Shown: one piece after another, positions 9,831-64,000 of the stretch
How positions within the stretch are numbered: position 1 is the first letter of the stretch
How the letters are laid out: each line of letters starts with the position of its first letter
Source of the DNA: Polynucleobacter sp. Tro8-14-1
GTDB lineage: Bacteria; Pseudomonadota; Gammaproteobacteria; Burkholderiales; Burkholderiaceae
Reading direction: 5' to 3'
Assembly: GCF_018881655.1 (NCBI RefSeq)
Contig: NZ_JACVPX010000001.1
Coordinates: 248,001-312,000, forward strand
DNA length: 64,000 nucleotides
Program-made: the position numbers and the translations under genes
The notes under the pieces: model-generated
Database searches by the model: none
The model's input: the letters and a program-made list of their open reading frames with translations, nothing else
What the model was told of the DNA's origin: nothing

Positions 9831-10178
9831 ATGAGTCGCGCTCCCAAAAATCCCACCACTGGCAACCCCAGCAATCCGTACGTTGAAGATACCCTTCTGC
9901 TCGAAAAGCAAATCGAGCAAGTTAAGGCGCCTTCGATGTATAAAGTTTTATTAATGAATGACGATTACACGCCAATGGAATTTGTGGTGATGGTGATTCA
10001 GGAGTATTTTAATAAGGATCATGAAACAGCTACACGCATCATGTTGCAAGTACATTTAGTTGGCAAGGGCGTTTGCGGAGTATTTACCCGCGATGTTGCC
10101 GCTACGAAAGTGCATCAAGTTATCGAACTCTCCCGTGAAGCGGGTCACCCACTACAGTGCACTATGGAGGAAGCATGA
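9831..10178 (+). CDS. clpS: ATP-dependent Clp protease adaptor ClpS
   Basis: Delivers N-degron substrates to ClpAP. It has the family core [16 protein letters not shown] with the substrate-pocket NDD and Met, then [20 protein letters not shown] and a C-terminal Ala-rich end. Possible starts are GTG 9813, ATG 9822 and ATG 9831; I take 9831 (115 residues, [11 protein letters not shown]), without a decisive ribosome-binding site. Its TGA overlaps the clpA ATG by 4 nt, so the adaptor and its unfoldase are translationally coupled. Confidence 0.95.
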
Positions 10179-14753: not shown

Positions 14754-15965
14754 TTAAATTTTCTTAGCAACTAGCGCAATGAGTTGACGTGCAAGCTGAA
14801 GCTTTTCTGCTTTAGCAATTTTTTTGCTGCCGCTGGTGTCAATCACGAGCAATTGATTGAGGTCGCTGCCGAATGTATCGGGACCAATGTTGCCAACAAT
14901 CATTGGGATACCTTTGCGCTGGCGCTTCTCATCGGCATGCTTTTCTAGATCTGTTGACTCTGCTGCAAAGCCTACGCAATAGGGGTGCGGCTTACCACCT
15001 TTAGTTTTCACTGTCTTAGCAACGTCAAGCAGAATGTCTGGGTTAGCTGAAAACTCTAGATGAGGCGCTTGATTACCTTGGCGCTTCATTTTTTCTTTGG
15101 CGGGCTTAGCAATGCCCCAGTCAGCGACGGCGGCGACTGCAAAGAAAACATCGCAGTCAGTTGCACTCAGAGTAGCCGCATGCATTTCTTTGGCGCTAAC
15201 GACATTGGTGCGGGTGATTTGTCCGGTAGCTTCAAGTGGGGTACTGAGATTACATGGCCCAGCAATTAAATGGACTTGAGCGCCAGCCTCAACAGCAGCT
15301 CTTGCAATAGCAAAACCCATCTTGCCCGAGCTGTGATTGGTGATGCCACGCACTGGATCAATCGCTTCAAATGTGGGGCCTGCAGTAATTAATACTTTTT
15401 TGCCGGCCAATACTTTTTTCTGAAAGAAGGCAATGACTTGCTCAGTGATTTCTGTAGGCTCAAGCATTCTGCCCATACCCACTTCGCCACAAGCTTGGAA
15501 GCCGCTGGCAGGCCCAAGAAGGATAACGCCATCGTCCGCAAGCCGTTTGATGCTTCTTTGGGTAGCTGCATGCTCCCACATCTGCTTGTTCATCGCCGGA
15601 GTCAGCAAGAGAGGGCAATCTCTTGCAAGGCATAAGGTGGTCAATAAGTCATCAGCTAAGCCCAGAGAAAGCTTGGCCATGAGATCAGCGCTTGCAGGGG
15701 CAATCAGAATGGCATCTGCAGAACGAGATAACTCAATGTGCGCCATATTGTTTGGAATGGTGCTATCCCATTGACTCAGGTAAACCGGATTACCTGTGAG
15801 GGCTTGCATGGTCACAGGCGTTACAAATTGTTGTGCAGCCTCGGTCATCACTACTTGTACGGATGCACCATCTTGCATGAGTTGACGTGCAAGCTCAGGG
15901 GCTTTATAGGCCGCTATCCCACCAGAGATTCCGAGAACGATCTTCTTATTAATAAGTGATTGCAT
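14754..15965 (-). CDS. coaBC: Bifunctional phosphopantothenoylcysteine decarboxylase / phosphopantothenate-cysteine ligase
   Basis: Two consecutive steps of coenzyme A synthesis. The N-terminal CoaC flavoprotein domain (about residues 1-185) has [16 protein letters not shown], the catalytic-His region [18 protein letters not shown] and the [12 protein letters not shown] Cys segment. The C-terminal CoaB domain has [20 protein letters not shown] and the [10 protein letters not shown] nucleotide-binding segment. The 403-residue length is normal for the fusion. It lies between lspA and dut on one leftward transcript. Confidence 0.96.
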
Positions 15966-59952: not shown

Positions 59953-62514
59953 ATGCCGAATACCAAGACCAAAAAACCAGCTCCAAAAGCGAAAGCTCCA
60001 GCTAAACCAGTAAAAGCCGCTGCAAAACCAGCGGCCAAAGCAAAAACCCCAGCTAAGCCAGTAAAGGCTGCCGCAAAACCAGTTTCTAAAGCTAAATCAC
60101 CAGCTAAGCCCGCTCCAAAAGCGAAAGCTCCTGCAAAGCCAGTAAAAGCGGCTGCAAAACCAGCGCCTAAAGCTAAGGCACCTGCTAAGCCAGCTCCAAA
60201 AGCTAAAGCACCAGTTAAACCGGTGAAGGCTGTCACAAAGCCAGCCCCTAAGGTTGCAGCTAAAGCGCCAGCAAAACCAACAAAAGCAGTTGCAAAGCCA
60301 GCGGCAAAAGCGCCGGCAAAGCCAGTTGCTAAAGCCCCTGTGAAAGCAGCAAAAGCAGAAGTCAAAGTTGAGCCAGTAAAAAAAGGTAAAGCTGCGCCTG
60401 CTCCTAAGGTTGAGCCAGTTAAAGAGGCAAAGGAAGTAAAAGCAACCAAAGATAAAAAAGCCCAGGTTGCTGAAGTTGAGGCGCCAGTAGCTGAAGAAGA
60501 AAAGAAGCGTGGCCGTAAAGCCAAGACGGATGCTCCTGCAGAAAATGCGGAGCCAGTTTTAACGGATCGTCAAAAAGCGCGTGAGCGTAAAGCTAAAGAG
60601 AAGGCGCTCTTAAAAGAATTTGCAGCACAGCAGTTGGGTACTGAAGAGCAGCAAGAGCTACGTCGTGCTCGTTTGAAGACTTTGATCAAGATGGGTATGT
60701 CCAAGGGCTATTTAACCCATGGCGAGATGAATGACGTGATGTCTGACGAGTTGTCTGATGCGGATGCATTAGAGACTTTGATCAGCTTGCTCAATGACAT
60801 CGGTATTACTGTTTACGAACAAGCGCCCGATGCTGAAACTTTAATCCTGTCTGACAATACAGAGGCCGCAGCTTCCGAAGAAGAGGCTGAAGAAAAGGCT
60901 GAAGCTGCTTTATCTACAGTTGATTCAGAATTCGGACGCACTACCGATCCAGTACGCATGTATATGCGTGAGATGGGTACAGTGGATTTGCTGACTCGCG
61001 AAGGCGAGATCGTCATTGCGAAGAAGATTGAGGCCGGCCTCAAAGATATGGTGATGGCTTTGGCCGCTTGCCCAGTAACGATTGCGGAGATTCTGAGCAA
61101 CGTTGACAAGATCGCTAGTGGCGAGATGGAGATTGACCAGTTTGTTGATGGTCTAGTTGATCCTAACGCAGAAGATATTAAGCTTGGACCTGAAGAGCCA
61201 GAAATTGATCCGGACGCTGAAGAGGGCGAAGATGACGGCGGTGAGGATGAGGGCGGCGGTGGCGGCGGTGGCGCTGCAACAGCGAATGCCAAGCAACTAG
61301 AAGAGTTAAAGCAGATTTCTTTAGAGAAGTTTGCCATCGTTCGCACACAAGCTGACAAGATGCGCCGTGCGTTTGATAAGGATGGTTATAACTGTCCTGC
61401 GTATCTGAAAGCACAAGAAGCAATTCGCGCTGAATTGCTTGGTTTCCGTTTGACAGCGAAGAGTGTTGAGAAGTTATGTGACACTATGCGCTCACAAGTA
61501 GACCAGGTATGGAAACTCGAGCGTGGCATCGTAAGTCTTTTGGTAGATAAAGTTGGCGTTAATCGTAGCGAAGTATTAAAGGACTTCCCTAAGATGTCTA
61601 TGAATTTGACTTGGACTGAGAAGTTGCTTAAAGAGAATAAGCCTTACAGCGCACTCTTGCAACGTAACGTCCCTGCAATTCAAGAACTTCAACAGAAGTT
61701 GATTGATATTCAGAAGAATGTTGTTATTCCACTTCCAGAATTAAAAGAAGTAAACAAGCAGATGATCGCTGGCGAGAAGCGTGCCCGTGAAGCGAAACGT
61801 GAGATGACGGTAGCCAACTTACGTTTGGTAATCTCCATTGCTAAGAAATACACCAACCGCGGCTTGCAGTTCTTGGACTTGATTCAAGAAGGCAACATCG
61901 GCTTGATGAAAGCGGTAGATAAGTTTGAATACCGTCGTGGCTATAAGTTCTCTACCTATGCAACATGGTGGATTCGTCAGGCGATTACTCGTTCGATTGC
62001 TGACCAGGCCCGTACGATCCGTATCCCTGTTCACATGATTGAGACAATCAACAAGATGAACCGTATCAGCCGTCAGATCTTGCAAGAAACTGGCCATGAG
62101 CCAGATGCTGCAACCTTGGCGCTGAAGATGGAGATTCCTGAAGATAAGATCCGCAAGATCATGAAGATTGCTAAAGAGCCTATCTCCATGGAGACACCAA
62201 TTGGTGACGATGAAGATTCTCATTTGGGCGACTTTATTGAAGATGGCAATACATTGGCTCCAGCCGAAGCAGCATTGCATGACTCTATGCGTGATGTGGT
62301 GAAGGACGTTCTTGATTCATTAACACCACGTGAAGCAAAAGTATTGCGTATGCGCTTTGGTGTTGAGATGAGCACTGATCACACTCTCGAAGAAGTCGGC
62401 AAGCAGTTTGACGTTACTCGTGAGCGTATTCGTCAGATCGAAGCTAAGGCCCTGAGAAAAATGCGTCATCCAAGCCGTAGCGACAAACTCAAGACCTTCC
62501 TCGAGGAAGATTGA
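59953..62514 (+). CDS. rpoD: RNA polymerase primary sigma factor (sigma-70) with an Ala/Lys/Pro-rich N-terminal extension
   Basis: An 853-residue housekeeping sigma factor. Residues 1 to about 155 are nearly all Ala, Lys, Pro and Val in repeats such as [15 protein letters not shown]; an acidic/basic stretch follows to about 205. Region 1.1 begins around [18 protein letters not shown] non-conserved acidic Gly-rich patch ([16 protein letters not shown]) lies before region 2. Regions 2.3-2.4 ([20 protein letters not shown]) and 4.2 ([20 protein letters not shown]) are normal. No Met lies between the first codon and region 1.1, so the extension is not a start-choice artefact. Extended RpoD N-termini are common in Burkholderiales. 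Confidence 0.96.
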
Positions 62515-62531: not shown

Positions 62532-62564
62532 ATCGTGAGTCCTTTATAAAAAAGGATTCACGAT
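62532..62564. terminator. 14-bp hairpin at the rpoD/vapC convergent junction
   Basis: ATCGTGAGTCCTTT (62532-62545) pairs with AAAGGATTCACGAT (62551-62564) with one G-T pair and a 5-nt loop. It covers the vapC stop codon. There is no T run, so termination in either direction is plausible but not proven. Confidence 0.55.
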
Positions 62565-62948
62565 CTGCAGTCTCTTATCAATTACTTGCCGGTGCTGCAT
62601 ATCTTCTGAGTACAGTTTTTCGCATCCTGCTTGCAAAGCCGCAGCAATAATCATTGAATCATAGTGATGGTATCCATATCGCCTGGACACCATCAATCCA
62701 GTTTCAAAAGTATCTATATCAAGCGATCTTACGTTGAATGTAGACGTAAATAAATCTAAGAATTCATCCAGCTCACTATTAGATATTTTTATTTTTCTAA
62801 TGCTAGCAGAAGTAAATTCATTAAGCACTTGAACGCTTATTACGTTCGATTGCTGTAAATTTTTAGTAACCCAGTCTGCTTTTTTGGTATCTGATGATAG
62901 TAAATAAAGTAGGGTATTGGTATCAAAAAATATCTTCTTAGCGTTCAT
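62544..62948 (-). CDS. VapC-type PIN-domain toxin
   Basis: A 134-residue PIN-domain ribonuclease, typical in length for VapC. The first acidic residue is Asp9 in FFDTNTLLYLLS; further acidic positions are Glu in QVLNEFTSAS and Asp in YHYDSMIIAAAL and YSEDMQH, so the catalytic set appears intact. Its start overlaps the 3' end of the antitoxin gene by 11 nt, so the two are translationally coupled. VapC toxins commonly cut tRNA or rRNA; the target of this one is unknown. Confidence 0.88.
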   Translation of the reverse strand: MNAKKIFFDTNTLLYLLSSDTKKADWVTKNLQQSNVISVQVLNEFTSASIRKIKISNSELDEFLDLFTSTFNVRSLDIDTFETGLMVSRRYGYHHYDSMIIAAALQAGCEKLYSEDMQHRQVIDKRLQIVNPFL

Positions 62949-63168
62949 TCAATTCAGATCTATCAAAGTGAAAATCAGCGGGCATGCGACCACGAAATTT
63001 TCTCAAACTTTGAAGCCTATCCTGCAGGGAAGGTTTCTTCTTAACTTGGAAATGCTTTTTATCCGCAACATGGACCTCAATGTCATCCCCTTCTTTTAGC
63101 TCTAAAAATTCGACCACTTGAGCTGGTAGACGAATGGCAAGGCTGTTCCCCCATTTTGATACGACCAT
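62938..63168 (-). CDS. AbrB/MazE-type antitoxin (VapB)
   Basis: A 76-residue antitoxin with an N-terminal swapped-hairpin DNA-binding domain (VVSKWGNSLAIRLPAQVVEF, then LKEGDDIEV) and a C-terminal toxin-binding tail ending DFHFDRSELNER. The start is ATG 63168, which has GGAG nine nt upstream; an earlier ATG at 63177 abuts that GGAG and is judged wrong. The pair is likely autoregulated through the palindrome just upstream. Confidence 0.87.
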   Translation of the reverse strand: MVVSKWGNSLAIRLPAQVVEFLELKEGDDIEVHVADKKHFQVKKKPSLQDRLQSLRKFRGRMPADFHFDRSELNER

Positions 63169-63181
63169 GATTTTCATCTCC

Positions 63182-63213
63182 TTTAGATATACATATAATA
63201 ATGTATATCTAAA
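63182..63213 (-). promoter_or_regulatory. Palindromic operator of the vapBC unit
   Basis: TTTAGATATACAT and ATGTATATCTAAA are exact 13-bp inverted repeats with an ATAATA spacer, centred 30 bp before the antitoxin ATG. Position and symmetry fit binding by an AbrB-type antitoxin dimer of dimers; TA-rich promoter elements lie inside it. Confidence 0.75.
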
Positions 63214-63270
63214 TAAAAACCAACATTTCAGCAAGTGCATACCAATCAATCATTTGAAAGCCCCTTCAAT

Positions 63271-63276
63271 TACAAT
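63271..63276 (+). promoter_or_regulatory. -10 box ahead of the tRNA half-gene
   Basis: TACAAT (5/6 match) lies 9 nt before the first base of the tRNA 5' half (63286), the normal spacing for a tRNA promoter. No good -35 box is seen. It looks like the original promoter of the tRNA-Ile2 gene. Confidence 0.5.
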
Positions 63277-63282
63277 GAGTGG

Positions 63283-63323
63283 TTAGGGCCCATAGCTCAG
63301 TTGGTTAGAGCAGGGGACTCATA
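63283..63323 (+). pseudogene. Duplicated 5' half of tRNA-Ile2(CAU), ending in the anticodon loop
   Basis: 41 bp identical to 63516-63556 except one base (G at 63314 for A at 63547). It covers the acceptor 5' strand, the D arm, the anticodon 5' strand and the CAU anticodon, then breaks off. The following bases do not contain the 3' half of a tRNA or intron sequence, so it cannot fold into a tRNA. The break is within a base or two of the point where the group I intron enters the complete copy. Confidence 0.9.
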
Positions 63324-63518
63324 AGAAAGAAGCCCTAGGGGTCTTGTAACAAAGACCTCAATGATTTCAAGAGCTTAGTGGTGAATTAGGTAGTCAAAAT
63401 TGCTTACACACCGCTTACACACCGAAGCTTTTTTCATGGTGTGTAGTAAATGCGGTTTTTATGTGGTTTTAAGAAGTAAAACACCCCTCAAAAGGTGTGT
63501 AGTAAATGTAAAGTTTTA
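63324..63518. other. 195-bp spacer with iterated integrase-arm-like motifs
   Basis: No gene is visible. It contains GCTTACACACC twice in tandem (63402-63412, 63413-63423) and, in the opposite orientation, GGTGTGTAGTAAATG twice (63438-63452, 63494-63508); all four share the core TACACACC or its complement. A small GGTCTT/AAGACC hairpin is at 63340-63357. Repeated short sites in both orientations between two copies of a tRNA segment resemble the attachment region of a tyrosine-recombinase element, but no integrase gene is present. Confidence 0.55.
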
Positions 63519-63804
63519 GGGCCCATAGCTCAGTTGGTTAGAGCAGAGGACTCATAGCGAAAGTTGTGCCTTATGCGTGGAAACTGCATAAGGGATGGTG
63601 TCAAATTCGGAGAAAGCTAAGTTCAGTAATGAATATGCTAACGCCGAGCGAAGCTTAGTAAGAAATTACTTTGAACGTGTAGAGACTAGACGGCACCCAC
63701 CTAAGTTCAGAAATGAATACGGTGAAGGCATAGTCCAGGGAGTAATGAAAATTACACAAACCGGAATCCTTTGGTCCCAGGTTCAAGTCCTGGTGGGCCC
63801 ACCA
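63519..63804 (+). tRNA. tRNA-Ile2 (anticodon CAU, lysidine type), interrupted by a group I intron
   Basis: Exon 1 is 63519-63555 and exon 2 is 63765-63804 with an encoded CCA. Joined, they fold perfectly: acceptor GGGCCCA/TGGGCCC, D arm, anticodon stem GAGGA/TCCTT (one G-T pair), loop CTCATAA, five-base variable loop, T arm CCAGG-TTCAAGT-CCTGG. Anticodon CAU fits tRNA-Met or tRNA-Ile2. C4-G69 and C5-G68, which the lysidine synthetase TilS recognises in tRNA-Ile2, are both present, and the TTCAAGT T loop resembles E. coli tRNA-Ile2, so Ile2 is preferred over elongator Met. The intron splits the gene between U36 and A37. Automated tools may miss it or call it a Met pseudogene. Confidence 0.93.
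63556..63764 (+). ncRNA. Group I self-splicing intron in the tRNA-Ile2 anticodon loop (IC3-like, 209 nt)
   Basis: All core elements can be drawn. P1: exon CAU plus AGC pairs with GUUGUG (63563-63568) over a GAAA loop, with the U-G pair at the 5' splice site. P2: 63569-63576 with 63586-63593. P3: GGTGTC 63597-63602 with GGCACC 63692-63697. P4: TCGG 63607-63610 with CCGA 63644-63647. P6: AGTAA/TTACT with a GAAA loop (63657-63670). P7, the guanosine site: GACTA 63684-63688 with TAGTC 63731-63735. P8: CACC 63698-63701 with GGTG 63721-63724 and a GAAA-capped inner stem. P9: GTAAT-GAAA-ATTAC (63742-63755). The terminal G is 63764. Core stretches such as AGAGACTAGACGGCACCCAC match the Azoarcus tRNA-Ile intron (about 205 nt) as I recall it. 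It encodes no protein. Confidence 0.95.
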
Positions 63805-63812
63805 GAAAAGCA

Positions 63813-63847
63813 AACCCTCATCAGTAATGGTGGGGGTTTTGTCTTTT
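63813..63847 (+). terminator. Intrinsic terminator after the tRNA
   Basis: AACCCTCAT (63813-63821) pairs with GTGGGGGTT (63830-63838) with two G-T pairs, followed by TTGTCTTTT. It starts 8 bp past the tRNA CCA end. Confidence 0.75.
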
Positions 63848-63875
63848 GAGCGTTACTTAAAGTAACGCTTAGAAT
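63846..63875 (+). promoter_or_regulatory. Candidate promoter with an internal palindrome for the last ORF
   Basis: -35 TTGAGC (63846-63851), 18-bp spacer, -10 TAGAAT (63870-63875). The spacer region contains AGCGTTACTT-A-AAGTAACGCT (63849-63869), a 10-bp inverted repeat. Transcription would start near the ATG at 63882, giving a leaderless mRNA. Confidence 0.4.
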
Positions 63876-63881
63876 AGTCTG

Positions 63882-64000
63882 ATGAATAATGACTCCACTA
63901 AATTAGAGGAAATAAAAAAGCTTGCCTCTACTGATTTAGGGTTACTTTTTCATAATTTCCAATCTTCTTCTACTGGGTTATCAGCGAAGCAGTGGAGGGC
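63882..64000 (+). CDS. Start of an ORF cut by the right edge, possibly a P-type cation ATPase
   Basis: Translates as MNNDSTKLEEIKKLASTDLG, then LLFHNFQSSSTGLSAKQWRA, running off the window. The GLSAKQW segment after a short helical N-terminus recalls the cation-ATPase N-terminal domain (such as Mg2+ or Ca2+ pumps), where GLS precedes a helix. With only 39 residues visible this is a guess. It begins 78 bp after the tRNA, with no Shine-Dalgarno sequence and a -10-like TAGAAT right before it. Confidence 0.45.
   Translation, partial: MNNDSTKLEEIKKLASTDLGLLFHNFQSSSTGLSAKQWR

Follow-up and report, generated by a model that had tools for sequence, protein, structure and literature searches.

An apparently island-borne tRNA-Ile2 gene of Polynucleobacter is split by a group I intron that may hide its anticodon loop from integrase

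We describe a tRNA-Ile2(CAU) gene of Polynucleobacter sp. Tro8-14-1 that is split within its anticodon loop by a small group I intron and lies near the end of the 64,000-nucleotide stretch of DNA analysed here (hereafter the window). The reading that we favor, with a probability of about 0.65, is that the split gene is a replacement tRNA-Ile2 brought by an integrated island, and that its intron largely hides the loop from integrase. The sequence gives good support to the first part of this reading, the gene as the replacement tRNA of an island. We suggest that a tyrosine integrase would join island and host within CTCATAA, the 7-nt anticodon loop of the host tRNA-Ile2, and so would sever the host gene, leaving its 5′ half at the left junction (attL) and sending its 3′ half to the right junction (attR). 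The island's own site would lack the missing tRNA half, which is why the severed gene would not be restored; the island would instead supply a complete tRNA-Ile2 gene, placed some 190 nt inward of attL. With a group I intron in the loop of this replacement gene, self-splicing would restore the tRNA as RNA, and the loop in the DNA would no longer be an intact target, so that the copy would be largely hidden from the island's own integrase as well as from later islands.

Results

The only match in the window at the Rfam gathering threshold was to the group I intron model RF00028, at 63543-63757 on the plus strand (61.3 bits with a cut-off of 50, E 4.1e-13), and it covers model positions 1-253, i.e. 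the whole core. With introns allowed, ARAGORN called a single gene in 63201-64000, at 63519-63804, with anticodon CAT, a mature tRNA of 77 nt and an intron of 209 nt at the junction 'ctcat-Intron-aatcc'; a cloverleaf with a CAU anticodon forms once the intron is removed. Run without introns, the program called no tRNA and overlooked the split gene. ARAGORN labels the gene Met(cat), and we take it to be tRNA-Ile2 after the ileX-type genes. P1 forms a hairpin of 6 bp, capped by a GAAA loop, in which U63555-G63566 is the wobble pair at the splice site; the last nucleotide of the intron is G63764. A homing endonuclease would not fit in 209 nt. An earlier, sequence-only reading of the stretch had described a tRNA-Ile2(CAU) gene split in its anticodon loop by a group I intron in a Polynucleobacter-like host and had named the RF00028 model beforehand as the check: the model and ARAGORN agree with it, the genus is Polynucleobacter, the ends that it gave for the 5′ exon (63555) and the intron (G63764) are exact, and the P1 with its splice-site U-G pair and the terminal G that it claimed are in place.

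Alignment of 37 related introns (out of 49 distinct introns extracted) gave a consensus fold of 43 pairs; for 14 of these pairs, one or more of the sequences differ at both partners. A chance match or a pseudogene is ruled out by the RF00028 score together with this kept RNA pairing. A search of the Tro8-14-1 genome (G000) with the joined 77-nt exons returned 4 matches, the best at E 4.0e-15 compared with about 1e-34 for unsplit copies elsewhere. No unsplit tRNA-Ile2 was seen among them (best 4 of 14 candidates, in an assembly of 21 contigs from which a copy at a contig break would escape); a second complete split tRNA-Ile2 is present at G000:C5:336847-337141. The structure of the window intron and the lack of a seen unsplit gene make splicing likely. 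With only split genes seen, splicing should also be needed, as the sequence-only reading had stated.

Upstream of the split gene lie a displaced 5′ half of the same tRNA and an arm region, about 190 nt long, that contains direct as well as inverted repeats (Table 1). Within the arm region GCTTACACACC stands as two direct repeats at 63402-63423 and GGTGTGTAGTAAATG occurs twice, at 63438-63452 and 63494-63508; integrases bind repeats of this kind, and we infer that these are integrase arm sites. In relatives the 5′ halves span tRNA positions 1-38/39 and the 3′ halves positions 33-77, with CTCATAA as their shared limit.

Table 1. Features of the split tRNA-Ile2 locus and its neighbors (positions in the window)
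Feature	Position	Strand	Basis
Displaced 5′ half of tRNA-Ile2 (tRNA 1-39), presumably left at the island's left junction (attL)	63286..63324	+	97% match, repeat D1
Presumed 7-nt crossover core CTCATAA (anticodon loop)	63318..63324	+	Common limit of 5′ and 3′ halves
Putative island left-end arm region, attP-like	63325..63515	+	Repeats; matches in relatives
5′ exon of the putative replacement tRNA-Ile2, ending CTCAT	63519..63555	+	ARAGORN with introns, tRNA match
Group I intron, 209 nt, 3′-terminal G	63556..63764	+	RF00028, ARAGORN, shared fold
3′ exon of the putative replacement tRNA-Ile2, CCA encoded	63765..63804	+	ARAGORN with introns, tRNA match
rpoD-like sigma factor gene (family name presumed)	59953..62514	+	Open reading frame (ORF); same neighbor in L044, L045
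Start of presumably cation-ATPase-like gene, first large downstream ORF, running past the window (L004 3882-6464)	63882..64000	+	ORF

The same elements recur across the genus, for which we used a set of 186 Polynucleobacter genomes, scoring at most about 4 candidates per genome in the joined-exon and arm searches. The core was found in four sequence contexts, namely GAGGA.CTCATAA.TCC in unsplit genes, T5.CTCATAA.arm on the left, A.CTCATAA.T3 on the right and A.CTCATAA.arm between neighboring islands, and the scanned loci held 18 distinct left sequences (including L007), 12 island-to-island, 7 right and 5 unsplit ones. As the letters common to all junctions are those of the loop, CTCATAA would be the crossover overlap. 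By hand count, the joined-exon query gave at least 94 full-length matches to unsplit tRNA-Ile2, spread over many genomes, and it also gave many 3′ halves that begin at tRNA position 33, in the anticodon loop. RF00028 matched in 69 of the 186 genomes, up to five times per genome and 109 times in all, under stricter filters, by which G083 was missed although its gene is split on reading. By eye, the RF00028 match in G052 (L034) appears to lie in another tRNA.

The arm region was matched in at least 78 of the 186 genomes. For counting what follows it we kept the matches of at least 76 nt, which number 94 and come from 70 genomes; another 12, none longer than 57 nt, were left out. An RF00028 match comes directly after the arm in 69 of the 94. 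By what comes next, the arms divide into 79 with a split tRNA, 8 with an unsplit tRNA, 2 with a second arm, 1 with no tRNA (G181) and 4 that run into the end of the contig. The 79 split genes comprise 68 with the window-type intron (arm-linked copies whose sequence was unread were assigned to it by an RF00028 score of at least 47.9 bits), 10 with a second group I intron, one of them truncated (G147), and a single chimera. The second intron is placed before the anticodon, between GGACT and CATAATCC, and the two introns thus break the same 7-nt core at two places. The chimera (L322, G119:C59:1-1200) has the 5′ part of the first intron and the 3′ part of the second; its spliced tRNA would duplicate CAT, and it is probably dead. 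At the locus without a tRNA (L310, G181:C35:1-900) the arm is followed by a terminator-like stretch, and the replacement gene looks deleted. Two arms with an unsplit tRNA (L299 in G099 and L306 in G062) have a degenerate 5′ half and no rpoD end directly upstream, and are perhaps secondary integration sites.

Islands with both junctions around their cargo were found in three relatives. That of G079 is about 2.4 kb (L044 7012-8597) and encodes AbiEii-like and DUF6088 proteins, that of G075 is about 3.8 kb, and that of G067 is about 33 kb and has an integrase 2.7 kb from attR. The G079 island, with both junctions and no integrase, amounts to a minimal cargo island. The integrase is a tyrosine recombinase of about 190 aa, consisting almost wholly of the catalytic domain (Pfam PF00589). 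In G067, G044 and G093 its gene is found 2.7 to 5.5 kb inward of the right end; in G184 it precedes the A.CTCATAA.arm junction by 5.4 kb. In right-end stretches of about 12 kb it was found in 3 of 20 (G044, G093, and G065 at 11.8 kb). Members of the family occur in 95 of the 186 genomes at E 1e-25, more than have the arm. Among the proteins beside the integrase (Pfam 5, NCBIfam 3, PHROGs 4), no family was found except one PHROG of unknown function.

Outside the genus, an exact 18-nt core pattern picked out at least 119 stretches in genomes (record titles known for 80 of the 119) and at least 120 in viral contigs. Among the matches listed, to which the tRNA counts below refer, 241 core sites yielded 211 intron-bearing tRNAs in ARAGORN; the 30 sites without one were dropped, as were 11 tRNAs with less than 400 nt upstream, leaving 200. 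Counting as a 5′ half any match of at least 26 of 34 nt, we found one 177-485 nt upstream of 17 of the 43 non-initiator CAT intron tRNAs; for the other tRNAs the figures are 2 of 22 for Arg, 1 of 102 for Leu, 0 of 12 for initiator-like and 0 of 21 for the remainder. At least 5 of the 17 CAT cases are Polynucleobacter, and the others include Methylotenera, Gulbenkiania mobilis, Sterolibacterium, Rhodoferax and beta proteobacterium AAP51; one is a metagenome-assembled genome (MAG) of Akkermansia, surely misbinned, and many others are also MAGs. The two tRNA-Arg(UCU) genes with group I introns (L117, L172), one of them from Enterovibrio norvegicus, are preceded by 5′ halves at distances of 144 and 191 nt. 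A close relative of the integrase (47-53% identity) is present in 4 of 11 such genomes (9 CAT, 2 Arg), with weak matches or none in the rest. In G187 and G194 it shares a contig with the split gene, at distances of about 4 kb and about 34 kb respectively; in G194 there is also a remnant beside the split gene. For the 8 CAT intron tRNAs of viral contigs, 6 of which have an upstream stretch of at least 400 nt, no 5′ half reached the same threshold. No record of the plasmid or phage collections covers 80% of 63283-63804 in one place; shorter matches number 10 in plasmids and 99 in phages.

Intron copies of the same genome often differ more from each other than from copies in other species. In eight tests, within a set of 32 genus copies, the closest copy is in another species in 6, tied in 1 and in the same genome in 1. 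The window intron with short flanks is 95.9% identical to a copy in G182, against 87.0% to its neighbor in its own genome.

Downstream on the same contig are a partial intron with a 3′ exon at C5:339291 and pieces of the 3′ exon at C5:316053 and 345364. We read the local copies on C5 as a probable array of island remnants, with the window copy itself a remnant. A gene for a DUF4325 and HATPase protein (L005 10248-11288, i.e. C5:338248-339288) ends right at the truncated intron and 3′ exon. The integrase family gave no match in L004-L006 (C5:308001-368000). Elsewhere in the genome, integrase relatives lie near tRNA-Phe and tRNA-Met genes, the former accompanied by two 5′ halves and several 3′ pieces, the latter by a 3′ half; in the tRNA-Phe array (L377, G000:C11:180000-199999) the intact gene is at 9940, the 5′ halves are at 1156 and 3088 and the 3′ pieces at 14776 and beyond.

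The tRNA-Ile2 site adjoins the rpoD-like gene in several relatives (e.g. L044, L045). In the window, two ORFs on the minus strand stand between rpoD and the displaced half, at 62544-62948 and 62938-63249; we take them to be PIN-domain-like and AbrB/MazE-like, and the pair is perhaps another toxin-antitoxin accretion. A palindrome around GAGCGTTACTTAAAGTAACGC at 63844-63874 has copies at C5:336436, 337186 and 337805, beside these tRNA copies.

Discussion

The shielding part of our reading is drawn from the two-intron pattern and from the junction counts. Right junctions occur in unsplit loops at 112 sites in 77 of the 186 genomes, and in first-intron copies at 6 sites in 6 genomes (G043, G044, G045, G104, G108 and G143), where the counts are of inherited states and not of independent events; those in the split copies of G044, G045 and G108 look like one inherited event. 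As split and unsplit genes are similar in number (109 RF00028 matches versus 94 unsplit matches), split copies look disfavored as targets, not immune. Tandem 5′ halves, expected at unsplit genes if unsplit replacements can be struck again, are found at the tRNA-Phe gene of the Tro8-14-1 genome and at an unsplit tRNA-Ile2 in G123. The best reading of the two-intron pattern and the junction counts is that the intron would be kept because the gene is shielded. The wider proposal, that islands have on at least two occasions acquired self-splicing introns as shields acting at the DNA level, so that a target broken in the DNA would be repaired as RNA, we put forward tentatively and at slightly worse than even odds.

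Alternatively, the replacement gene may be island-borne as we propose and its intron a neutral passenger, which entered once or twice, is rarely lost and gives no shielding. We consider this unlikely, if far from negligible. The unsplit replacements after 8 of the 94 arms would agree with it, as would the unsplit tRNA-Phe gene beside an integrase relative and the expectation that the intron should splice out harmlessly. On the other hand, a neutral passenger would hardly be expected as two different introns at two positions of one 7-nt core, or to go with 112 junction sites in unsplit copies versus 6 in split ones. The pairing kept in the intron, with 14 of 43 pairs changed on both sides, also speaks against neutrality, although it argues for selection for splicing and not for shielding.

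Several observations weigh against our reading, besides the inherited nature of the junction counts. The 8 unsplit replacements exclude an intron needed in every replacement tRNA, and the junctions in split copies exclude the intron as a perfect block; by eye, two more split copies have been struck (G180, and a second site in G143 with another intron start), and in G043 two tandem arms occur, the second followed by a split copy. We found no clean attR for the window copy, as the 3′ half at C5:316053 is without the full core; the right-junction pattern is absent from the whole of G000; and the four listed integrase-family members of that genome are all away from the window copy, the tRNA-Phe and tRNA-Met genes beside such relatives being unsplit. 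Six split genes in the scanned loci are without an upstream core, in G032 and G034 the split gene adjoins rpoD with no attL, and 26 of the 43 intron-bearing CAT tRNAs listed in the wider search have no 5′ half at the threshold. Lastly, no member of the integrase family lies in 17 of the 20 right-end stretches (each about 12 kb), and for this reason we propose that islands with no integrase in reach may have been mobilised in trans or have decayed. Given the unsplit replacements and the struck split copies, we put the shielding benefit forward as a proposal.

It is very unlikely, in our view, that the gene is native and simply carries an Azoarcus-type intron, with the 5′ half and arm left next to it by chance by an unrelated island. 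Such a gene would account for G032 and G034, and for the 40 of 109 RF00028 matches in the genus that do not directly follow a detected arm; of these, some have a diverged arm and 5′ half (e.g. L009, L031), some have lost the arm and some were struck by another island. It would not account for the RF00028 match directly after 69 of 94 arms or for the layout of half plus split gene in several genera. The group I intron in tRNA-Ile2(CAU) of the sequence-only reading stands, but that reading missed the context, namely the second split copy and the upstream 5′ half and arm, and the replacement tRNA of an integrated island fits better than a native gene invaded by an intron. To a last idea, that splicing is a switch on AUA translation which ties tRNA supply to GTP or magnesium, we give next to no weight, since RF00028 is patchy (69 of 186 genomes), even if only split copies were seen in the window's own genome.

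If our reading is right, transfer of islands would be a possible route by which group I tRNA introns without homing genes spread between bacterial species. Tycheposons, which carry cargo and tyrosine recombinases and reside at tRNA genes, share these traits with the islands described here; we know of no intron-split tRNA in tycheposons. Azoarcus BH72 pre-tRNA-Ile reportedly has a small group I intron in the anticodon loop of tRNA-Ile(CAU). The Polynucleobacter intron would resemble it in type and location, and the sequence-only reading had proposed an IC3-type relative; here the intron is in addition tied to an arm region, to attL and to the 5′ half displaced there.

Tycheposons are mentioned in one paper (PMC10872708), and the Azoarcus intron is named in a 2014 review (PMC3984707), according to which there is little evidence for horizontal movement of bacterial introns among species. 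The Islander islands reportedly lie in tRNA genes, have a tyrosine integrase, include a class with an anticodon-centered crossover and displace a tRNA fragment, and in all of this they resemble the islands described here (PMC4383910). They differ in that a fragment in their attP restores the gene, whereas here a whole second gene would be brought, mostly split; the word 'intron' has 0 occurrences in the Islander text. A bacterial group I version of the layout was not found among the papers listed in literature searches, judged by title and opening of the abstract, where subscription journals are thinly covered, and the nearest case is archaeal. In the tRNA-Thr of Caldiarchaeum, a 5′ fragment likewise lies upstream of an intron-bearing copy, the intron is attributed to a mobile element, and protection is proposed, citing Randau and Soll (PMC3293823); the idea of shielding is thus itself not new. 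Whereas that case concerns an archaeal intron at one tRNA locus, the present one concerns bacterial group I introns in many genomes, with two introns and with junction counts, and could provide a bacterial many-genome case for the blocking of integration by tRNA introns, which we found argued from the archaeal locus.
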